Part shown: positions 1-63,740 of the stretch, one piece after another
Numbering within the stretch: the first letter of the stretch is position 1
How the letters are laid out: every line of letters starts with the position of its first letter
Assembly: GCA_011389735.1 (NCBI GenBank)
Contig: JAABTS010000002.1
Location: 1-64,000 of the forward strand
Origin: Desulfobacteraceae bacterium
Lineage (GTDB): Bacteria; Desulfobacterota; Desulfobacteria; Desulfobacterales; JAABTS01
Direction: 5' to 3'
DNA: 64,000 nucleotides
The notes under the pieces: generated by a model
The model's input: the letters and a program-made list of their open reading frames with translations, nothing else
The model's database searches: none
What the model was told of the DNA's origin: nothing
Translations under genes and position numbers: made by a program

Positions 1-443
1 GGGAAAAGCGAAAAGTCGGGTTAAGTTTTATGAGGCTTTGAAGTTCTACGGGATTGAAACAGGCAAGGATGCCTGTTTTACTGGGTTGAAACCGGCTGAA
101 CGGAATTATTGCAACCGTCAACGTCGGGTTACGCGATTTCGGCATGGGATTTTAAGACAATCATGATAATCCTGAATTTTACGGGATGTTTGAAATGCAG
201 GTGTCCGCTAACCCGACCTACGCGAAAAGCGAAAAGTCGGGTTAAGTTTTATTAGGCTTTGAAGTTCTAAGGGATTGAAACAGGCAAGGATGCCTGTTTT
301 ACTGGGTTGAAACCGGCTGAACGGAACGATTGCAATCGTCAACGTCGGGTTACGCGATTTCGGCATGGGATTTTAAGACAATCATGATAATCCGGAAATT
401 TACGGGGATGTTTGCAATGCAGGCGTCCGCTAACCCGACCTAA
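1..443. repeat. Two tandem ~221-bp direct repeats (first copy cut by the window edge)
   Basis: Copies beginning gaaaagtcgggttaagttttat at ~10 and ~231; ggattgaaacaggcaaggatgcctg at 51 and 272; ctaacccgacct at 208 and 430. Period 221-222 bp. Confidence 0.9.
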
Positions 444-2327: not shown

Positions 2328-4370
2328 TTATTCATACATGATGGTGGATTCATAGAGGATCGTGGTTTCATCGTGGGAGCTTTTTTCTTCTTCCGCTTCC
2401 GCCTTTTCGAGCGCGTCGGTTTTCAGTTCGCCCCATTCTTCGTTATACATGGATCGGATCACGACATGGAACATGGCCTGCATGAGTTCCAGCACCGTGA
2501 ACCTGGCAGTAGACCGGCCGGTGACCGCAACGATATCTCCGTGCGTCTTCTGAAGCGCTTTCAGCCGTTCCAAATCTTTTAACAGGCTGACAATCTGTTC
2601 CCGGGTTTCAGGCGGCGTTTTGGGCGCTCCGCCGCCTTGCTCCCATTTTAGCCGGTATCGATGGATTTCCTCGTAAGAGGATTTTATCAGATTATTGCGG
2701 TTTTTGTCCCCGCTGAAGATCACCTGGGAAATAACCCGTTTTTGTAATGATTTGGTGATTTTGCGCCCCACATAATCCATTTGCTCTTTTAACAGCGGGT
2801 GAAAGGTCTCCGGAAGAATAATCTCGATTGACTTCAAAGCTTTTTCGTTTTCTTCGGTTTTTTTCCGGAATTCCAGTTGAGCCGCGCTCCAGAAATTTTT
2901 GCCCGAAAATTGGACCACAAAAGAGGGCGGCCGTTTTTCTTCCGCCGCTTTTTTGGTTATCTCCTTGATTTTGGACAGCCATTTCCGGGTTTGTTCGAAC
3001 AGGGTTTCTCCGGTGACCACATTGTAAATTATTCCCACAACGGCGTGCCAGTCCTGAAGGTGGAGGATTCTGTGCAGGTCGCCGTAGATTTCCTGGAGGA
3101 TTTCGTTCTTGAACATGTGAAGCGGCGTTGCGTAAGACGGCGTGCCCGCCCGCAGCGGCTGCTGGATTTGCTTATGGTTTTTGGGCTTGATTAGAACGGC
3201 GGTTTCAAAATCGATCAGGCCCAGGGAATAGGCGTCCGCCGAACTGAATAAAAAGGGGTTCAATTCCGGGCTTCCCACAACGAACAAATTGTCGGGCTTG
3301 AGATCCCGGATCGCCAGCCCTTTCGTGTTCAAGCAGGCCAGAAGTTCCGTCACGTTCGTCGTGATACCGCCCATTTTGGCTTTGTTCTGAGAAAACTTGA
3401 CGTTGCGAATATAATTACGGACGGTGTTCCTATAGCTTTGAACAATGTCCCGGTTTTTTTCCATGACCTTTAAAACAGCGGAGTTCAATTCCTTTTGAAA
3501 TTTTTCGGAATGGACGGACGGATCCAGCTTGATTTCCTTTTCGGCCAGATGATCGATGAGCCACTGGTGTTTATCGTAAGCCGTGAAAACACCGCTCTTC
3601 TTGCGGCCGTCCAAAAAATTCCGGATTTCCGTTTCATATTCGGAAAACACCTTGGGCATGTCGAAACTGACCGATGATACGTCGTCGCCGTATTTTTCTT
3701 CAAAAGCGATCACATCCCACACCAGGTCGTGGCTCTGAATGATCTCCGCCCTCACCTCCTCTTTCATTTCGCCTCTCAAATGCAGCCGGTCCAGCACTTC
3801 CGACAAAAACGCATGTCTGGAAAGGTCCATGACGAACACGAACGATCCTTTTACTTTAAGGAACCGTTGATATTTCCGGTGTTTGCGAAGCCATTTGATG
3901 TATTTTCTTTCAAGCTCCAGGGATGACGCGCCCTCGCCGTCAGCAAGCGTATGCACCCGTTTCATGATCACGGCGATTCCGGGAGCCACGAATTCCACAT
4001 CCGGAGCCAGTTTGGCCGCGATTTTACGTTCCGCGCTGATGCTTTCCACGTATTCTTCGAAGGTTTCTATGGGTTTCGGAGGGATTTTGATGACCAGAAG
4101 ATCATCGTAGGACACCTTGAAACATTTGCTCTTGCTGCCGCCGCCGTCGCCGATCAGGGATATGGTCATCCGCCGGGTTTCAGGCAGCCCGTCCCGGTCG
4201 ACTTCCAGCTCGTAAGTGTACAACGATCCGTCGACGCCGATATTTCTGACCTGGGACGCCGCCGACTGGTCCACATTGTAATGATGCCGGTGCAACCTCA
4301 GAAAGAATTCGGCAATGCTCTTCCGATCCTGAATATCCTGCTGCTCTGTCATTGTATTTTCGTTTTCCAT
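2328..4370 (-). CDS. Divergent Ser/Thr protein kinase-like protein with a large insertion
   Basis: LLVIKIPP (VAIK-like Lys), catalytic loop LAIRDLKPDNLFV, GLIDFETAV (DFG variant), GTPSYATP; ~250 aa between lobes. Confidence 0.7.
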   Translation of the reverse strand: MENENTMTEQQDIQDRKSIAEFFLRLHRHHYNVDQSAASQVRNIGVDGSLYTYELEVDRDGLPETRRMTISLIGDGGGSKSKCFKVSYDDLLVIKIPPKPIETFEEYVESISAERKIAAKLAPDVEFVAPGIAVIMKRVHTLADGEGASSLELERKYIKWLRKHRKYQRFLKVKGSFVFVMDLSRHAFLSEVLDRLHLRGEMKEEVRAEIIQSHDLVWDVIAFEEKYGDDVSSVSFDMPKVFSEYETEIRNFLDGRKKSGVFTAYDKHQWLIDHLAEKEIKLDPSVHSEKFQKELNSAVLKVMEKNRDIVQSYRNTVRNYIRNVKFSQNKAKMGGITTNVTELLACLNTKGLAIRDLKPDNLFVVGSPELNPFLFSSADAYSLGLIDFETAVLIKPKNHKQIQQPLRAGTPSYATPLHMFKNEILQEIYGDLHRILHLQDWHAVVGIIYNVVTGETLFEQTRKWLSKIKEITKKAAEEKRPPSFVVQFSGKNFWSAAQLEFRKKTEENEKALKSIEIILPETFHPLLKEQMDYVGRKITKSLQKRVISQVIFSGDKNRNNLIKSSYEEIHRYRLKWEQGGGAPKTPPETREQIVSLLKDLERLKALQKTHGDIVAVTGRSTARFTVLELMQAMFHVVIRSMYNEEWGELKTDALEKAEAEEEKSSHDETTILYESTIMYE

Positions 4371-4893
4371 TATATCGGAAGGTGTTTCAAAGATGTCCCG
4401 TATTCACAAAACGCCTTTACGGCCTTGTGAAATTTAATTTCTGAAAACCTATACCACGAAATGTTTGAAAATGCCGATGAAATTTTTCGTGTATTTCGTG
4501 GTTTTATAAAAATAGCCGAAATTGTAACCAGGCCCTTACCGCCTTCCGGAAACGATTTCTTCGCAATCGGACGGCGCTTTCGACCCATAGCCTTTCAGAT
4601 TTTAAATTTCAGTGCGCTGCCCCCAAAGCGATTACCGGTACGATACAGGTAGGAAATCGCGCCACAACCATGAATTTCATGCGCCTTCCCCCTTGTGCCG
4701 ATAATAAAATTAAATTATCATATCATAAATCAATCAAAGCGTGTATAGAAAAACACTATTTTTTTGAAAAATCAACCGTGGATTGGAAAGGACCGACAAT
4801 CAATGAAAAAACGTATAGCCGATGCGTCGAACGCGTCGCTTGATTTCCGGAAGCCTATGGCCTTGAAAAAAATTGAAACACAGGGAATCTTGA

Positions 4894-6786
<1,893 letters not shown>

Positions 6787-6828
6787 TTGAACTTTTGTGA
6801 AACCGCTATATATTGGCTGAACGAAAAC

Positions 6829-6908
6829 CACCTCACGCTCCAAGGGGATTTGCAATCCCCGTTTGCCGCGAGAGGGTAGAAGCGGGTTGCAAACCCGCTT
6901 AGAGCCGT
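6829..6908. repeat. REP-like palindromic element between parE and parC
   Basis: cacctcacgctccaaggggatttgcaatccccg...agcgggttgcaaacccgcttagagccgt; same layout as 25761-25838 and 28153-28230. Confidence 0.8.
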
Positions 6909-6959
6909 ATTTTGAGACTTTTCCTTCAGTCACTATATTGCTAAGCGAGACGATAAATT

Positions 6960-9257
6960 ATGATCACGGAAACCGTAAAAGCATCAAACGACGGAACGGA
7001 GTATTTACCGTTAAAAGCATATACTGAACGGGCTTATCTGGAATATTCCATGTATGTCATTCTGGACCGGGCGCTGCCGAAGATCGGAGACGGCTTGAAG
7101 CCGGTTCAGCGGCGGATTGTATACGCCATGTCTGAATTGGGCTTGAAAAGCACTGCCAGGTATAAAAAATCCGCCCGCACGATAGGGGATGTGCTGGGAA
7201 AATTTCATCCTCACGGCGATTCGGCCTGTTACGAAGCCATGGTGCTCATGGCTCAGCCTTTTTCCTACCGGTACCCTCTGGTCGACGGACAGGGCAACTG
7301 GGGATCGTCCGACGATCCGAAATCGTTTGCGGCCATGAGATACACCGAGGCCAAACTTTCCGCCTATGCGGAAATCCTGCTTCGAGAACTGGAACAGGGC
7401 ACGGTGGACTGGACTCCCAATTTCGACGGCGCTCTGGACGAACCAGTCATGCTGCCGGCCAGACTCCCCAACATCTTGTTGAACGGCGCCGGCGGTATCG
7501 CCGTCGGCATGGCCACCGACATTCCTCCTCATAATCTCAGGGAAACGGCTCGGGCGTGCATCGCCATCCTGGAAAACCCCGGCGTCGATGTAGAAACGCT
7601 TTTTGAGCATGTCAAAGGGCCTGATTTTCCGACAGCCGCAGAAATCGTATCCCCTTACGAAGATATTTTAGAAATGTATAAAACCGGGCGGGGCATGATC
7701 CGGATGCGAGCCCTGTATCACCGGGAAAACGGCGATATCGTTATTACCGCCCTGCCCTATCAGGTGTCCGGGGCTAAAATAATGGAACAAATTGCGGCTC
7801 AAATGCAGGCCAAAAAATTACCGCTGATAACGGATCTCCGCGATGAATCGGATCACGAAGATCCGGTGCGGTTCGTCATTACGCCCAGATCCGGCCGCGT
7901 GGACATCGGCCCCCTCATGGATCATCTGTTCGCCACCACGGATCTGGAACGAACCTACAGGGTAAATATGAACGTCATCGGTCTGGACGGGCGGCCCGCA
8001 GTCAAAAACCTGCTCGAAATCTTGACCGAATGGCTCGAATACCGAATCGAAACCGTGCGCAGACGCCTTCAATTCCGGTATGACAAGGTGGCGGATCGGA
8101 TTCATATATTGGAAGGGCTGCTCATCGCTTTTCTGAATATCGACGAAGTGATCGAAATTATCCGAAACGAAGACAAACCTCGGCCGGAGCTGATGAAAAG
8201 GTTCGGGCTTACGGAAAGACAGGCCGAAGCCATCCTGGAGCTGAAACTCCGGCATCTGGCGAAACTCGAAGAAATAAAGCTGAACGGTGAAAAAGCCGCC
8301 CTCACAAAAGAGCGGAAACATCTGGAATCACTGCTGTCGTCCGAAAAACGCCTGAAGAATCTGATTCGCAAGGAACTGGCTGAAGACGCCGAAAAATATG
8401 GCGATGACCGGCGTTCACCGATCATTGAACGGAAGGAGGCCCAGGCGTTTAAAAAAACGGAGGTGATTCCCGCTGAACCCGTGACCGTCGTTCTGTCTGC
8501 GGAAGGGTGGGTAAGAGCCGCCAGGGGTCATGATATCGACCCCTCAAAGCTGCCTTATAAAGCAGGAGATCGATTCCTGACATCCGCCGGAGGGCGCAAC
8601 GTGGACGACGCCGTCTTTCTGGATACGACCGGCCGTGTGTATGCACTTCCGGCCCACAGCCTTCCGACCGCCCGAGGGCAGGGGGAACCGTTGAGCGGCA
8701 GGTTGAATTTGCCGCCGGATTCAAAAATAATCGCTTTGTTGATGGGAGCGCCGGACGACCTGTATGTTCTGGCCGGAGACACCGGATACGGTTTTATAAC
8801 TCAGTTTTCAGAGATTGTCGCCCGGAACCGGAACGGCAAGATAATGGTGAAACTCCCGGAAGACTCACGCCCGATGCTTCCGCAGCCCGTAATCGATCTT
8901 GCCGACGACCTAATTGTCGCGATCACCAGCCGCGGACGAATGCTCATATATTCCGTGAACCGGCTGCCGGTGCTTCCAAAAGGCGGTAAGGGCAACAAAA
9001 TAATCAATATCCCGGCGGCGCGAATTAAAACACGGGAAGAAATTCTGACCGGTCTGAGAGTGATCCGCCCGGGTTCCCAATTAAATCTGTTCACCGAAAA
9101 ACGGAAACTACCGTTGAAGTTCGAGCAGCTCAACTTTTTCATGGGAGAAAGGGGTAGGCGCGGGAAACAACTGCCAAGAGGGTTCCGGAACGTGGATCGT
9201 ATCGAGGTGATCCCGCCGAAAACACCCGCCGCTATTGAAGAAAACTCGTCCGCTTGA
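6960..9257 (+). CDS. parC: DNA topoisomerase IV subunit A
   Basis: [43 protein letters not shown] catalytic Tyr region, degenerate C-terminal domain. Confidence 0.9.
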
Positions 9258-9268
9258 CGGGTGTGGCA

Positions 9269-9330
9269 GGTTCCCGCGCGAAGCGCAAAGCGCGGGAACC
9301 CAATTGAACACGCCGGACTCCCCGGCGTGT
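9269..9330. terminator. Putative bidirectional terminator between convergent parC and SLC13 gene
   Basis: 11-bp stem ggttcccgcgc/gcgcgggaacc (9269-9300) then acacgccgg/ccggcgtgt followed by attttac. Confidence 0.6.
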
Positions 9331-9333
9331 ATT

Positions 9334-10860
9334 TTACCCTGAAACCGTTACCGGCATTCCCATCAGCGGCCAGAGAACATAAACACTCAATCCAACGATA
9401 ATCATCAGTATAATACTGGCCGGAATCCCGTAAAGGAAAAACTGGCCGGTCGTGAATTGTTTGGAATCATAAGCGATTGCATTCGGAGCGGCCCCCACCA
9501 AAAGCAGAAACGGCATACCCGCGACCACGAGTGAAGAAAATAGGATGACATCCGGCGCCACTCCCAGGTAAGGCGCAATAACAAGCGCCACCGGAAGAGA
9601 TATGGCGATGGCCGCAACGTTCATGATGAAATTGGTCATTATCATGACAAAGAAGGCGATGCTCATGACGAAAACAAACCAGTGGGCGTTCTGGAACATG
9701 GTCAGCCAATGCACGGCGAGCCAGTTGGCGGCCCCGGTTTCCCAAAGACAAAAGCCGATACTCATGGCTCCCGCAAACAACAGAACAATGTTCCAGGGCA
9801 TCTCTTCGAGATCATCGATGTTAAGGATGTTCAACACATAAAAAAGAATGGTCGAGGTAAGAATGATCCCGGCTTTGTTGATCACCCCCAGGGCGGGAAT
9901 AAAGGATTGCAGCGACATGATTGAAATACAGCCGAAAATGATCAGCCCGGCCACGATTTCATTCCGGGTCATCGGCCCCTGGCGGGATGCAAGATCTTGC
10001 GCTTTTTCTCGAAGCCCAGGGATGGTGTCTTTTTCCGGCCGGCAGAGGAGCATGAAAAAGCCCCAAAGAATAAACGTCATCAGCCAGCCAACGGGAAACA
10101 TATAATAGGTAAGCTGAAAAAAGGATATGTTCACACCGACTATATCCTTGAAAAATCCGATGGCCACTGCGCCCCGGGCGGCCCCCAACAGAGTCACGAT
10201 ACTCCCGGCGCCCGCCACAAAAGCCATGCCCATGAACAACCCCATGCCGAATTTAGTCTTCTGGTTGTCCCGGTCATACATCGAATAAATGGTCAACAGC
10301 AGCGGATACATCGTGGCCGCCACGGCTGTATGCGCCATGATATGCGTCAACGCCGCGGTCACTATAAAACAGCCCAGATAAATCATGCTCGTCCTTTCTC
10401 CGACAATGGAGAGCATCCTATAGGCCAGCCGCTTTGTAAGCCCTGTTTTGGTGAAAACCTGACCGATCACCACCGAAGCGAAGATAAACATGACCGACGG
10501 AGACATGAAATCTCCAAACGCCTCCTTGGCAGGCCGGACAAGAAACAAGGTCTGCAACACCCCGATCGTAAGGCTGGTCACGCCGATGGGCACAACCTCA
10601 AAAACCCACCAGACACCGGCCAGAAGAAAAATCGCGAGCCCGCCCTTGGCTTCCCGCGACAACTCAAACGATTTGCCCATCGGATCCACCGCATCCGGAA
10701 ACGGCGGAGAATAATAAACAATGGTAAACAAAGAAACGCCCAACATCATAAAGATAATTCGTTTCCAGTTCAGATTTTTGAATTGAGCCCCGAACGGCGC
10801 TCCCCCGGACGTGTCGGTGTTTAATGAAACAGATTTTTCGGTGTTTTCCTGAGTCGTCAT
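9334..10860 (-). CDS. SLC13/DASS family sodium:anion symporter
   Basis: Multiple TM segments; typical DASS pattern (IMAHTAVAATMYPLLL, TNFIMNVAAIAISLPVALVIAPYLG). Confidence 0.82.
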   Translation of the reverse strand: MTTQENTEKSVSLNTDTSGGAPFGAQFKNLNWKRIIFMMLGVSLFTIVYYSPPFPDAVDPMGKSFELSREAKGGLAIFLLAGVWWVFEVVPIGVTSLTIGVLQTLFLVRPAKEAFGDFMSPSVMFIFASVVIGQVFTKTGLTKRLAYRMLSIVGERTSMIYLGCFIVTAALTHIMAHTAVAATMYPLLLTIYSMYDRDNQKTKFGMGLFMGMAFVAGAGSIVTLLGAARGAVAIGFFKDIVGVNISFFQLTYYMFPVGWLMTFILWGFFMLLCRPEKDTIPGLREKAQDLASRQGPMTRNEIVAGLIIFGCISIMSLQSFIPALGVINKAGIILTSTILFYVLNILNIDDLEEMPWNIVLLFAGAMSIGFCLWETGAANWLAVHWLTMFQNAHWFVFVMSIAFFVMIMTNFIMNVAAIAISLPVALVIAPYLGVAPDVILFSSLVVAGMPFLLLVGAAPNAIAYDSKQFTTGQFFLYGIPASIILMIIVGLSVYVLWPLMGMPVTVSG

Positions 10861-11276
10861 ATTTTCCTCACCTTCTTTTGTTGAAAAAATCGACGGCTGA
10901 TCCGCTAAACGGCCAGGCGGCTGACGCAGGCGCGGCCCTTGTCAGTATCTACGCCCTGTTTTCCTTCCGCCATCCGTCATTATCATTTCTGAAAGCCTGT
11001 ATAGGTTTACGTATATAACATCTCAGAAGGCTAAAGGCATGAGATAATACTAATTGTAATTCTCTAACCGATAACGCCCTGAAATTCAATACGTGGAAGC
11101 CTATAGCATTCATTATTAGCCTTGTAAATAATATTTTACAGCTTTTTTCAAGAGGATAGCAAGTTTTTAGGGTGAGTACTCAGTAATACGTGGCTTCAGA
11201 AATGAAATATAATAAAGCGGTAGGCCGTGGATAATACGATCATGGGCAGTGGATAGCGGTTAGCGAATAGTATATT

Positions 11277-11505
11277 CAGAATCCTTGATCTCTGGGAAAA
11301 TTCGGTGACACCAATTCCGTCTTTGACGGCGAAATAAATCTCCCGCCTGTATCTTCTTATGGCGACGGCCACGAGAGGGACACGCGGGTTACAAACCCGC
11401 TCAGAGCCGTGGTTACAAACTCGTTCAGAAAAACCGTTTCACGGTCCCATGGGATTTGTAATCCCCGTTTAGAATTCTTGATCTCTTGGAAAGTTCAATG
11501 ACACT
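11277..11505. repeat. REP-like palindromes flanked by an imperfect ~35-bp direct repeat
   Basis: agaatccttgatctctgggaaaattcggtgacacc (11277) vs agaattcttgatctcttggaaagttcaatgacact (11471); between them cgggttacaaacccgctcagagccgtggttacaaactcg and gggatttgtaatcccc. Confidence 0.7.
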
Positions 11506-11597
11506 TCAACATTCAACATTCAACATTCAACATTCAACATAATAAAACAAGTATATCCCCGGGCCGGCAACGAATTGAATTAATCATCTCAAAAGCT
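11505..11597. repeat. AACATTC tandem array plus right arm of the ~105-bp palindrome
   Basis: aacattcaacattcaacattcaacattcaacataa followed by tatatccccgggccggcaacgaattgaattaatcatctcaaaagctgta. Confidence 0.75.
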
Positions 11598-11634
11598 GTA
11601 TCCACCGCCCATATTTCCGGAAGGCGATAGAGCG

Positions 11635-14006: not shown

Positions 14007-14110
14007 TGCTCTTCCGGAAATTGAATTTCACTGGGTAGCCTGCCGGGGATATACGAACAGTATTATCCCGGGCCGGCCGCCTTGTAAAATGTAATTTCTG
14101 AAAACCCGTA
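14007..14110. repeat. ~105-bp interspersed palindrome
   Basis: tcttccggaaattgaatttcac...agcctgccggggatatacgaacagtattatcccgggccggccgccttgtaaaatgtaatttctgaaaaccc. Confidence 0.85.
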
Positions 14111-24500: not shown

Positions 24501-25871
24501 TCATCGTATCCCGAATCCTGAGCTATTGATGAAACAATTGTCGTCATCGTCATCGTCGTCATTGCCGGAACCGGTTCCGGTTCCGGGGTCGGTCCCGGAT
24601 GCGGCGTCGGCGAACACCACTTGCAACGGGTTCAAGCTGGTGTAGACGCTTTCATCGATGGTGTCGGAGTTCGGGTTCAGGATATCGATTCTAGCGTCCG
24701 TCTGGTTGCAGATCCAGACCATGCCGTTTTTATCGGGGTGTAAACCGCCTTCCATTCCGGCGATCGCTTTGTTGGACAGCGCCGGGACGCTTCCTCCGAT
24801 CTCCCCGGTGGCGGGATTGAAGATATAAACCGTATTGTCCTCCCATCCGTTGTATCCGACAAAATACCCTTTGGACGGGGAAACGACCACCATACCGGAT
24901 ATCAAACCGTAGGGGTGGTTGAATTCGTTTCCGTCGTCCACGACCATCTCGACCGTGTAGGTGTTCGGATCCAGTCTGGCGACGCCGCCGTCGTACATGG
25001 CGGGAACGCCGCTCCAGGAAGATCCGTATTTGCCTACGCCCTGGATGTAAATATAGCCGTCGGCTTCAACATACTGAGCGGCCAGAGGGTTTTTCACGGG
25101 CAAGGGAATTCCTTTCACGCCGATTGCGGCGTCCTTGCCCGTATCGATTTCCACGTCCCGGTTTGTGTCGAATACCGCAACATAAGCGGTGTTGGGTATC
25201 CATTCGTTGTTGCGATCCAGCCGCTGAAGCAGGATGAAAAGCTTGTTGTCGACCACGACGCCGCTCTGCATTTCCGGAATTTCATCCTGGTCTCCGTATG
25301 CCCCGAGATCAAGAACGCCGGTTTTAAACCCCGCTTCAGTTTGGGCTTGCGGATCTACAACCCAGGCCGTGCGTTTGCCGTAACGTAGAATATACGCCTT
25401 TTCAGGGCCGGCGAAAACCATATCTCCCGGATTGCCGGTGGTTTCATCGGGACTGTCCAGTGTGGAATATTGCCATATCGGCGTTTCGGGGTCGCTGACG
25501 TGAAATTTGGCCACGTTATCCGCGTTCATCCGTTCGATTCTGTAAAAATGGCCCGCATAGGCCGAAAGCGTGACATTGGACGCCGTCGGGAGCAATTCGT
25601 TCAGAACGGTTCGAGGGCCGCCCGGAGGATCGACATCGACCACCGAATGGGCGTAAACCGAATAATCCGCGGCCACCGTGCCGACCACAGCTTTCGGGTC
25701 TGATACGTCGGCGTAAAGGGGAACCGCGGTTAACAGCATAAAAATGAGTCCATAACCGAAAACCCTACGCTCACAGGGGATTTGCAATCCCCGTCGGCCA
25801 CTGAGTGACACTCGGGTTACAAATCCGCTCAGAGCAGTAATGAGTCCATAACCGAATCGTTTAATACACAT
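24501..25871 (-). CDS. Secreted beta-propeller-like protein in the corrinoid operon, with CFI-type C-terminal tail
   Basis: Repeated blade-like segments; C-terminus GTGTGSGNDDDDDDDNCFINSSGFGIR; start set at MCIKRFGYG with upstream ggaggtg. Confidence 0.7.
   Translation of the reverse strand: MCIKRFGYGLITALSGFVTRVSLSGRRGLQIPCERRVFGYGLIFMLLTAVPLYADVSDPKAVVGTVAADYSVYAHSVVDVDPPGGPRTVLNELLPTASNVTLSAYAGHFYRIERMNADNVAKFHVSDPETPIWQYSTLDSPDETTGNPGDMVFAGPEKAYILRYGKRTAWVVDPQAQTEAGFKTGVLDLGAYGDQDEIPEMQSGVVVDNKLFILLQRLDRNNEWIPNTAYVAVFDTNRDVEIDTGKDAAIGVKGIPLPVKNPLAAQYVEADGYIYIQGVGKYGSSWSGVPAMYDGGVARLDPNTYTVEMVVDDGNEFNHPYGLISGMVVVSPSKGYFVGYNGWEDNTVYIFNPATGEIGGSVPALSNKAIAGMEGGLHPDKNGMVWICNQTDARIDILNPNSDTIDESVYTSLNPLQVVFADAASGTDPGTGTGSGNDDDDDDDNCFINSSGFGIR
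25743..25856. mobile_element. REP-like element inserted in a CDS with an exact 18-bp flanking direct repeat
   Basis: aatgagtccataaccgaa at 25743-25760 and 25839-25856; 78-bp element between; net insertion 96 bp = 32 codons. Confidence 0.88.
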
Positions 25872-25893
25872 TGAAACACCTCCGTTTTCAAGT

Positions 25894-27936
25894 TTAATAA
25901 GTATAAGATAATGATGCAAAATACGAGATTCCCGGCCGGGGGTACCCGTTGAACGCTTCGTAATTGTCGTCTCCTATATTTTGAACCTCCGTATTGAACA
26001 AAAACCGGTCGTAAAGCACGGAGAATCCGGCGTTGAATTGTTCCCGGTCTTCGGCTTTGAGCAGATTGGCGGGGTCATAATACATACCGGATTCACCGAT
26101 GTACTCGCCGTATATCTTGACGCCTCTATGACGGGCTTCGAGCTTGGCGTATACGGCGCTTTCAAACCTGCCCGGCAGTTGTTTGCCGTCGAAAAGAGGA
26201 TCACGGCCTTTATTTTCCGTGTCCTGCCGGGTGTAATTCACGGTGAGGCGGAAATAATCGAGGAACGTAAGGGTCAATCCGGATTCGATTCCCAAAATAC
26301 TGCTTTTAGAGATATTCATCGATTTTCCTATGCCGTGGCTGTCGTATCTCCGCGTGATTAAATCATCGACCTCCGATATGAAAAACGCTGCATTAATCGA
26401 AAATGATTGTACAAGCCGATCGTCGAACGTTTTCCGGATTTCGAACCCGGCGTCGGCGTTCACCCCCTTTTCCGCTTCAAGATCTTCATTGCCCATGAAG
26501 ATCCCGCGGTCTCCGAACAATTCGTAGAACGAAGGCTCCCGCGTGTATCGAGCTGCATTGGCCTTCAGGGTCAGCAGGCGGGCGGGCCGGTATTTCAAAC
26601 CGAACTGGGGGTTCACGTAGTCTTCGGAACGGTCGCGGCCGGGGAGCGGTTCGCCAAAAGAACTCACAGCGCTTTCCAGTTCGTCCCGGATAAGGGTGTA
26701 ACGGAGAGCGGGGGTGAGAATGAGCCGGCCGTCCAGCATCGTCAGGCTGTCCTGAAGACCGGCCGAAAATTGTTTTCGCTCGCTGTCATGAGGGCTTTTC
26801 CGGTTCAAAAAATCTTTCGGCTGATAGGTTTCTTGACCGCCCGCAAGTATAAAGCTCAGGACGTTCCTGTCCGTCAGCCATTCCAGAAAAAAATCGCCTC
26901 CCGCTTTTCGCGTCACATATTCGATATGTTGTTTGCCCAGCCCGATATGGCCTTCCCTGTCGTCATAAACCTCACGGGAGTCCGTATATTCAAAACGGGT
27001 GATCGTATTGAAACGCCCCGGGCCGATGTCGTCCGCGATGAACTCCAGCGTCGATGCGTTACGCCGGGTGTCGAGGGACGTGGCCGTCCGGCCGCTGTTA
27101 TTCCAGGACGGTATCCCCTGACGTCTGGAAAACCATTGATTGGAAAAGGAGATGCGGGCCGTGTCAGTCAGATCGTATCCGATTTTCCCGAGAAGTCCGG
27201 CCTGGTCGAATTGTTCGTTGTTTCTGTCTTCCCGCCGGTCGTCGGCCGAATTGTATTTGGTGCCGTTGTCGTTCAGGATTTCAAAATCGTTTTCACTTTC
27301 CTTGTAATCGGCCGATACGAGATAATCCCAGTCGCCGGGTTTGTGGTTCACGAAGCCGGACAGTTTCCAGGTGTCGAAGGAACCGTATTCGGCCGTGGCT
27401 TTTGCCGTGATCTTCTCTTTGGACGCTTTTGACCTCAGGGTGCGAATGTTCACCACCCCGCCCATGGACGCCTTGTTGAAATTTATCGGCGAAATTCCAC
27501 GGAAAATTTCCACGGACTCGACATTCGAAAGCGCAATGCCGCTCAAATCCACACCGCCGCCCGACGCTTCATTGATAAGCACCCCGTCCATATACACCAT
27601 GACCTGTTCGGACGCCGACCCCCGGAGAGAAACCGAAGAAAAACTCCCCAGGCCTCCGGATTGCCTGATCTGGATTCCCGCCTCTTTCTCAATTACGTCC
27701 GAAAGCCCTTCCATGCGGCCTTCAAAGCTTTCCCGTTCTATGACCGTATGAAAGGCCGGAGTCAGATCCCTGTCCACGTCTCCTGTTTGAAAGTCGTCCG
27801 TTTCCTTTTGAGCCGTCACTACGACAGTGTCCAGCTCGACCGGAGCGGAACCGCTTTCCGCCGACGTAAGGGCCGGAAACGGGAGGATAACGAGAATCCC
27901 TGCAATCAAACCGGTTCGAAACATACTCAAGTTCAT
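25894..27936 (-). CDS. btuB: TonB-dependent outer-membrane receptor, BtuB-like
   Basis: Signal peptide, plug domain (GGLGSFSSVSLRGSASEQVMVYMDGVLINEASGGGVDLSGI), C-terminal aromatic ASLSYTY; downstream of a cobalamin riboswitch. Confidence 0.88.
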   Translation of the reverse strand: MNLSMFRTGLIAGILVILPFPALTSAESGSAPVELDTVVVTAQKETDDFQTGDVDRDLTPAFHTVIERESFEGRMEGLSDVIEKEAGIQIRQSGGLGSFSSVSLRGSASEQVMVYMDGVLINEASGGGVDLSGIALSNVESVEIFRGISPINFNKASMGGVVNIRTLRSKASKEKITAKATAEYGSFDTWKLSGFVNHKPGDWDYLVSADYKESENDFEILNDNGTKYNSADDRREDRNNEQFDQAGLLGKIGYDLTDTARISFSNQWFSRRQGIPSWNNSGRTATSLDTRRNASTLEFIADDIGPGRFNTITRFEYTDSREVYDDREGHIGLGKQHIEYVTRKAGGDFFLEWLTDRNVLSFILAGGQETYQPKDFLNRKSPHDSERKQFSAGLQDSLTMLDGRLILTPALRYTLIRDELESAVSSFGEPLPGRDRSEDYVNPQFGLKYRPARLLTLKANAARYTREPSFYELFGDRGIFMGNEDLEAEKGVNADAGFEIRKTFDDRLVQSFSINAAFFISEVDDLITRRYDSHGIGKSMNISKSSILGIESGLTLTFLDYFRLTVNYTRQDTENKGRDPLFDGKQLPGRFESAVYAKLEARHRGVKIYGEYIGESGMYYDPANLLKAEDREQFNAGFSVLYDRFLFNTEVQNIGDDNYEAFNGYPRPGISYFASLSYTY

Positions 27937-28152: not shown

Positions 28153-28230
28153 ATCCTCACGCTCACAGGGGATTTGCAATCCCCGTCGGCCACTGAGTGA
28201 CACGCGGGCTACAAACCCGCTCAGAGCCGT
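28153..28230. mobile_element. REP-like element between riboswitch aptamer and terminator
   Basis: atcctcacgctcacaggggatttgcaatccccgtcggccactgagtgacacgcgggctacaaacccgctcagagccgt; near-identical to 25761-25838. Confidence 0.85.
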
Positions 28231-28289: not shown

Positions 28290-28462
28290 GCGTACACATC
28301 CAGCATTCAGGCAGGTTTTCCGGCTCTCGGATCATCCTACTTTCCGCGCCTTCCCACCAGTGTTCCGGCAGTGGCGTATGCGGATTTCGTCCCCGATTAC
28401 GGCGGCGGGACCGCTTCCGAATTTAACGGAATTCCCTATTAAGCCTTATCGGCGCCTCAATT
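28290..28462 (-). promoter_or_regulatory. Cobalamin riboswitch aptamer
   Basis: Minus strand ggcgccgataaggcttAATAGGGAATtccg...AAGCGGTCCCGCCGCCGTAATCGGGGACGAA...GCCACTG...GGGAAGGCGC...AGGATGATCCGAGAGCCGGAAAACCTGCC (B12 box). Confidence 0.93.
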
Positions 28463-28508
28463 AAAAAAATGAAAATACAGGCTTTGTACGTTATTGTCAA
28501 ACATTATT

Positions 28509-28847: not shown

Positions 28848-28990
28848 TTTCCGGAAATCAAATTTCACCGTGTTGTCTATTTGGGGATATTTGAATGTTA
28901 AATGTTAAATGTTGAATGTTAAATGTTGAATGTTGGCTGTGAGTCCCCATTTAGCGTTTAACATTTACCATTCAACATAAACAACATAAA
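28848..28990. repeat. Palindrome left arm with nested ATGTTGAATGTTAAATG array
   Basis: agttttccggaaatcaaatttcaccgtgttg... then repeated aatgttaaatgttgaatgtt and inverse aacatttaccattcaacat. Confidence 0.7.
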
Positions 28991-30898: not shown

Positions 30899-30916
30899 TC
30901 TTCAAGCTCCTTCAAA

Positions 30917-31010
30917 TAATGTTGAATGTTAAATGTTAAATGTTAAATGTTAAATGAGGTGGACTTAACATTCAACATTTACCATTCAACATTCCCCATT
31001 CAACATTCCT
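30917..31010. repeat. TTGAATGTTAAATG tandem/inverted array
   Basis: gttgaatgttaaatgttaaatgttaaatgttaaatgaggtggacttaacattcaacatttaccattcaacattccccattcaacattcc. Confidence 0.85.
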
Positions 31011-33658: not shown

Positions 33659-33734
33659 TGCATCTTCCTTGCGACCGCGGTAGGGGACGGCCGTATTGAA
33701 AATTGAATTCCTGAAAGGCGGTATCGGCTTTCAG

Positions 33735-33841
33735 ATATACCTTTCGGAAACTGAATTTCACAAGGCGGCAAACCCTGGATGGTGCTGTTCGCATATCCCG
33801 GTCAGACAACACAGTGAAATTTGATTTCCGGAAGGCTATAG
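33735..33841. repeat. ~105-bp interspersed palindrome
   Basis: atacctttcggaaactgaatttcacaaggcggcaaaccctgg...gcatatcccggtcagacaacacagtgaaatttgatttccggaaggctata. Confidence 0.85.
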
Positions 33842-33896
33842 CATATCGGTCGTTGTTTTGCAAAGCGGGGAGGTTTATCGTCTTCCGGAAATCTTA

Positions 33897-34000
33897 TAAG
33901 TTTTCAGAAATTTAATTTCATAAGGCGGCAGGCCCGGAATCATACTGTTTGTATATCTATGGCCGAAAACACAGTCAAATTTACTTTCTGAAAAGCATAT
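33897..34000. repeat. ~105-bp interspersed palindrome
   Basis: ataagttttcagaaatttaatttcataaggcggcaggcccggaatcatactgtttgtatatctatggccgaaaacacagtcaaatttactttctgaaaagcatat. Confidence 0.85.
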
Positions 34001-43823: not shown

Positions 43824-43837
43824 CCCGCTCTGGTCTC

Positions 43838-43990
43838 TAAAGGTTTTCAGAAATTTAATTTCACAAGGCGACATGCCTATGAATGTTGAATGCTAAATGT
43901 TGAATGCTAAATGTTGAATGTTGGATGTTAAATGTTGAATGCTAAATATTGAATGTTGTCAATTTACAACATTCAGCATTCAACATAATA
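43838..43990. repeat. Palindrome left arm with nested TGTTGAATGCTAAA array, between gspE and gspF
   Basis: aaggttttcagaaatttaatttcacaaggcgacatgcc then (aatgttgaatgctaaatgttgaatg)n...acattcagcattcaacataa. Confidence 0.8.
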
Positions 43991-62056: not shown

Positions 62057-62139
62057 AATCCGGTCTTCCAAAAAATTCCAGCAGTACAAAAACTTTTATT
62101 TACATTTGATACAGCCTGCTGAGAGGTAATATATGAGAA

Positions 62140-62355
62140 CCTGTAGTTTTTCAGGAATTAAATTTCACGAGGCGGCAGGCCCGGGATTGTTGCATTTTGC
62201 GTTGAATGCTAAATTATTTATGTTGAATGCTAAATTTTAAATGAGGGGGGGACTCACATTCCACATTCAACATTCAACATTCAACATTCAACATAATATA
62301 ATTCGGATATCCCCGGGCCGACAAAGCAGTGAAATTAATTATCTGAAAAGCTATA
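62140..62355. repeat. ~105-bp palindrome with a tandem array nested at its apex
   Basis: Left arm gtagtttttcaggaattaaatttcacgaggcggcaggcccggg; nested ttgaatgctaaat...cattcaacattcaacattcaacat; right arm atatccccgggccgacaaagcagtgaaattaattatctgaaaagctata. Confidence 0.88.
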
Positions 62356-63634: not shown

Positions 63635-63740
63635 TATAGCCTTCCGGAATTCAAATTTCATTGTATTTTCGGCCCGTGATGCAAGAATATTATGATCCCG
63701 GGCCCGTCGCCTTGTGAAATTCAATTTCTGAAAACCGTAT
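63635..63740. repeat. ~105-bp interspersed palindrome
   Basis: tatagccttccggaattcaaatttcattg...ggcccgtgatgcaagaatattatgatcccgggcccgtcgccttgtgaaattcaatttctgaaaaccgtata. Confidence 0.88.

Follow-up and report, generated by a model that had tools for sequence, protein, structure and literature searches.

Rickettsia palindromic elements (RPE) were reportedly described by Ogata et al. 2000. These elements are palindromic repeats that lie in frame in unrelated protein genes, to which they add tens of residues, and they are found between genes as well (PMC10969869, PMC2229807); their target duplication is marked with a question mark (PMC2229807). CGTC-tagged REPs are hairpin dimers in head-to-head arrangement whose inner tags are CGTC/TGTC-like; they have no dedicated transposase, and their intragenic units encode 20–30 residues (PMC3733652). 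The YPAL/RU-2 elements of Yersinia, 168 bp long and abundant intergenically, have internal palindromes, no terminal repeats and target duplications of 3–26 bp (PMC2229807), and in the REPIN-RAYT system the mobile unit is a doublet of GTAG REPs (PMC3116915, PMC8266576). Here we describe a palindromic element in a 64,000-nucleotide stretch (the window) from an uncultured, sulfate-reducer-like bacterium, represented by a Desulfobacterales-like MAG of 477 contigs. The element lies in frame within a protein gene between exact 18-bp copies of its target, a rare legible trace of the spread of palindromes into proteins.

The sequence AATGAGTCCATAACCGAA is identical over 18 bp at positions 25743–25760 and 25839–25856 (plus strand), as read directly from the sequence. 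The repeat is exactly 18 bp long and ends there at both borders, where the adjoining bases differ: a at 25742 and t at 25838 on one side, and a at 25761 and t at 25857 on the other. The two copies start 96 bp, or 32 codons, apart, and the minus-strand reading frame is open throughout, which bears out an earlier note on this DNA that had reported the 18-bp repeat and a net gain of 96 bp that keeps the frame. Between the copies is an element of 78 bp (25761–25838, plus strand), identified by BLAST, covariance-model and nhmmer hits and by its ends; the same searches place its model core at 25767–25838 (plus strand), 6 bp from the left copy of the repeat and 0 bp from the right. The element consists of two inverted hairpins in head-to-head arrangement, located by sequence and alignment: GGGGATTTGCAATCCCC on the left (25776–25792, plus strand), with a 7-bp stem and a 3-nt loop, and on the right a hairpin on the minus strand (25813–25827) that reads CGGGTTACAAATCCG on the plus strand, with the family consensus GCGGGTTACAAACCCGC.

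The head-to-head dimer resembles that of the CGTC-tagged REPs, and here too there is no attached transposase gene. The sequence CGTC is present at the left hairpin (25792–25795), so that the tags of the insert read AATCCC-CGTC on the left and GTGTC on the right; many family members have CGTT. However, the stem of 7 bp and loop of 3 nt differ from the 8–9 bp and 4–5 nt of the CGTC-tagged REPs, and the core described here is also found embedded in a MITE with terminal inverted repeats. Strict membership of the CGTC family was considered and rejected on stem and loop size.

The gene that carries the insert (24501–25871, minus strand) is an open reading frame for a putative exported protein of 456 aa with no family match in Pfam or NCBIfam, and is placed between btuB-like and btuF-like genes. 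The upstream gene (25894–27936, minus strand) codes for a BtuB-like TonB-dependent receptor (Pfam PF00593/PF07715; TIGR01779 below cut-off), for which a first scan of the genome contigs with the protein as query gave no relatives, and upstream of it is a cobalamin riboswitch (28293–28474, minus strand; Rfam RF00174, 106 bits). We place the start of the host gene at the ATG at 25869–25871, a correction to the earlier note, with the Shine-Dalgarno sequence GGAGGTG (25877–25883, minus strand) 5 nt before it. The insert is read as 32 extra residues within the coding sequence complement(24501–25871), with no stop codon, and since the upstream ATG is preceded by GGAGGTG at this spacing the inserted segment is very probably translated. 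An internal GTG or TTG start, suggested previously, is unlikely, as none of the in-frame GTG, TTG or ATG codons within or after the insert has a Shine-Dalgarno sequence of its own. The added residues precede the hydrophobic core and lengthen the predicted signal peptide to about 54 residues (MCIKRFGYGLITALSGFVTRVSLSGRRGLQIPCERRVFGYGLIFMLLTAVPLYA). Because the hydrophobic core and cleavage-site region follow the insert unaltered, export of the predicted 456-aa protein with its signal peptide of about 54 residues is likely to persist. The operon that retains this 32-residue extension of a signal peptide has a cobalamin riboswitch at its head.

Matches to the host protein were found in 41 of 390 genomes of the order (the window's own genome counted); its relatives mostly have 45–56% identity, and those that are named come mainly from Desulfobacterales and Gammaproteobacteria. 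The 32-residue segment is missing from every one of the 29 order-level orthologues examined, and as judged from this comparison the 96-bp segment is a derived in-frame insertion. With orthologue starts picked by start codon and Shine-Dalgarno sequence, 46–76 residues separate the start from a conserved GGPR block in the 29 orthologues, and the window protein, when its 32 extra residues are left out of the count, falls within the same interval. The earlier note had proposed that a REP-like palindrome is inserted in frame in the signal-peptide region, against which a 32-aa segment shared by all orthologues, or orthologues lacking the element while retaining both copies of the flanking repeat, would speak; none of the 29 shares the segment and none has two copies of the FGYGLI-like motif, and the empty state of all 29 upholds the proposal. 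A quite different explanation is that the segment is an assembly artefact of a repeat-rich MAG, in which 477 contigs are present and several contig ends are close to copies of the repeat. However, the insert is shorter than sequencing reads usually are, an intact frame spans 456 codons, and the insert differs from its nearest relative at four sites; we give this explanation the least credence of any considered here.

The core model has at least 151 matches in the genome, and we collected 161 non-overlapping copies from these searches together with 847 kb of genome stretches. Scaling from 47 copies in about 780 kb of whole or nearly whole contigs gives a copy number of roughly 400 per genome. 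A search of 145 further genomes from the order with the core model gave no match at E ≤ 1e-6 under stricter filters. A plasmid collection gave no match. The hairpin pair of the family consists of two inverted GGGRTTTG[CT]AAYCCC sequences in a unit of about 78 bp, and the family exists in this genome in two forms. In 89 of the 161 copies the palindromic core lies inside a MITE of about 120 bp with terminal inverted repeats (GTGGCTGAACGAAAACCTCCTC ... ATTTTGAGACTTTTCGTTCAGCCAC), and an exact 6-bp duplication, mostly TANNTA, flanks 43 of the 85 MITE copies in which both ends can be placed. These full-length members fit the description of a MITE with terminal inverted repeats and a target duplication of fixed length. 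One of them, 121 bp long (6813–6933, plus strand), is present in the window, and consists of the core (6835–6908) with the outer inverted repeats, flanked by tatata and tatatt. A further 38 copies have no recognisable outer repeats and constitute the standalone form, to which both the window insert and a neighbouring copy at 28159–28230 belong. The two relatives of the insert named previously are therefore of different kinds: 28153–28230 has no outer ends and in this is like the insert, whereas 6829–6908 is merely the core of the 121-bp MITE.

Well-scoring, non-tandem standalone copies share their ends, a short pyrimidine tract followed by ACGCTC ... GAGCNGT, beyond which the flanks are near random. 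The 78-bp unit in the window matches these ends, so that the 78 bp of the earlier note are a real unit, although not the MITE. That the scar gives the length of the family's target duplication is not supported, since the insert is of the standalone form and its 18 bp differ from the 6 bp of the MITE form, and since the repeats at standalone copies are variable and longer. The insert could in principle be a decayed copy, introduced by ordinary MITE transposition and then stripped of its outer repeats, given that it shares its core with the 89 MITE copies. Such a copy would be expected to retain remnants of the outer repeats and a 6-bp duplication, but the insert has neither, and the exact 18-bp repeat directly abuts the core, at 6 bp on the left and 0 bp on the right. 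We consider decay of this kind highly improbable.

Flanking repeats of at least 9 bp are present at four of 16 non-tandem standalone copies (18, 11, 10 and 9 bp). When left and right flanks were permuted, four of 16 at this length was reached in 0 of 2000 permutations, and no repeat above 9 bp arose. With mismatches allowed, a further flanking repeat of 16/17 bp is seen at a copy on contig C429 (C429:6019). The 11-bp repeat on contig C60 may be partly element sequence, because it shares TAACGGTTCC with the flank of a copy on contig C461, and the 10-bp repeat on contig C262 (TTTTGCGGCT) may be so too because of its likeness to the outer sequence of MITE copies. The 18 bp in the window are the one case of a perfectly clean long duplication. 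In their lack of terminal repeats and their variable duplications, 9–18 bp across standalone copies, these elements would duplicate their targets much as YPAL/RU-2 does; the likeness is one of duplication behaviour, and the element described here is 78 bp long and comes from a host with Desulfobacterales relatives, as opposed to 168 bp in Yersinia.

Of 142 good copies, the one most closely related to the insert is standalone and lies at a distance of 2.4 kb in the leader of the same operon (28153–28230, plus strand), between the cobalamin riboswitch and the btuB-like gene; it is 94% identical over the core and shares with the insert a private spacer (CACTGAGTGACAC) that is absent elsewhere in the set. 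The neighbour itself has no flanking repeat. The standalone copy at C429:6019 (in C429:4200–6900), with its 16/17-bp direct repeat, has 93% identity to a MITE copy at a distance of 1 kb, and provides another local example resembling the window insert. A local origin of the insert, by transposition or by template switching, is suggested by these observations, and no more than suggested because, across copies in general, similarity between neighbours exceeds that between distant copies only slightly. In template switching, a polymerase active in replication or repair would have jumped from the gene to the related hairpin at 2.4 kb and, after copying it, resumed at a point 18 nt upstream, which would leave an insert between direct repeats with no transposase involved. 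Both local pairs are consistent with this, as is the sequence CGAA at the left junction, which matches family outer sequence (CGAAAACC). However, the copied segment has the standard standalone ends, whereas a random switch would be expected to disregard them, and on its left side the neighbour reads caatatcctc, which does not match the aaccct of the insert. We regard template switching as possible but unlikely, and the defined ends speak for a discrete unit.

The interpretation that we prefer, and hold to be probable although by no means secure, is that the insert is a derived insertion of a standalone REP dimer at a staggered break. The sister copy at 2.4 kb, or else a standalone source common to both, would have supplied the incoming DNA. 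Insertion would have taken place at a staggered break, or at two nicks spaced about 18 nt apart, with duplication of the target by subsequent fill-in, as in YPAL-like elements. Selection could have tolerated the insert, as stop codons are scarce in the unit and the 96 bp gained are a multiple of three. Consistent with this, cores of the family are poor in stop codons, with a mean of 3.9 open frames per copy compared with 2.8 for shuffled sequence.

We also considered whether a RAYT, a Y1 tyrosine transposase, could have moved the insert as a REPIN through single-stranded DNA, as the earlier note had raised the possibility of such a source gene. The REP-dimer architecture would agree with this, and there are RAYT-like genes in the genome: six Y1-transposase matches were found, one of which (C60:4974–5510) passes the NCBI cut-off for REP-associated tyrosine transposases (NF047646, 88.7 compared with 80). 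However, this gene is flanked by different REPs (TCGTTCCCACGCTC), and no RAYT in the genome is paired with the family repeat at its flanks; a shorter gene on contig C425 is accompanied by a variant dimer, but on a single flank. The family consensus also lacks the GTAG tag of REPINs, and to our knowledge transposition of the IS200/IS605 type duplicates no target, in contrast to the duplication seen here. Since the one gene above the cut-off is paired with another REP, the evidence does not support a RAYT source, which we consider improbable. The RAYT-like gene on C60, together with its own REPs (TCGTTCCCACGCTCTGCGTGGGAATGCA), is itself inserted into a MITE of the family described here, and this MITE is broken (C60:3555–6758, about 1290–2290).

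Only a few percent of family copies are intragenic, and among the collected copies, those that clearly lie in frame inside long genes are of the standalone form. A PKS-NRPS gene on contig C420 (ORF 4309–11631 within C420:22000–35402) has three in-frame insertions, two of them dimers, in the KS-AT linker and in the AT domain, and one a half unit before a carrier domain. Solved PKS homologues are without the inserted segments, and the PKS copies fall in alignment gaps. A sensor kinase gene on C60 contains one in-frame standalone copy, for which the flanking repeat is the evidence of insertion; no orthologue with an empty site was found, the hits covering the kinase core and no homologue spanning the insertion site. 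The net gain is 96 bp in the window, where the flanking repeat is 18 bp long; it is 102 and 96 bp in the PKS-NRPS gene, with repeats of 9 and 6 bp, and 96 bp in the kinase, with a repeat of 11 bp. Selection for frame would suffice to account for the in-frame rule, with no need for targeting, and since only multiples of three survive, the recurrence of a 96-bp gain may be due to chance.

In being inserted in frame in unrelated genes and absent from homologues, as in the window gene and the PKS-NRPS gene, the element appears to work like an RPE, a likeness of behaviour. It differs in belonging to another phylum, in its length (about 78 bp compared with 105–146 bp), in its two short hairpins, in the visible flanking duplications and in the small fraction of copies that are intragenic. 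A family outside Rickettsia with in-frame copies and visible duplications bears on how RPE-like palindromes enter genes, and because the core also occurs within a MITE whose duplication is fixed and of another length, this one genome allows a comparison of both modes. A more speculative extension, which we think doubtful, is that the core is mobile by two routes, one as a MITE with terminal inverted repeats and a fixed 6-bp duplication, and the other alone, with a long stagger (9–18 bp or more) and repeatedly a gain of about 96 bp. If true, RPE-like palindromes would make their way into proteins by the long-stagger route.

Several other features of the window were observed. The standalone copy at 28159–28230 lies in the operon leader, between the riboswitch aptamer (28293–28474) and the btuB-like gene, and the expression platform could involve its hairpins. 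A second interspersed family, with TTTTCAGAAATTTAATTTCA-like ends and GGCGGCAGGCCCGGGAT, is present at 33728–33940, 43831–43883, 62135–62187, 14056–14102 and 63686–63732, and is perhaps a second MITE. Arrays of 7-bp units (TGAATGT/TAAATGT) are located beside other repeats at 28878–28980, 30902–31008, 43866–43988 and 62203–62296, and at the start of the window (3–406) there is a 183-bp direct repeat with 96% identity and a spacing of 221 bp.
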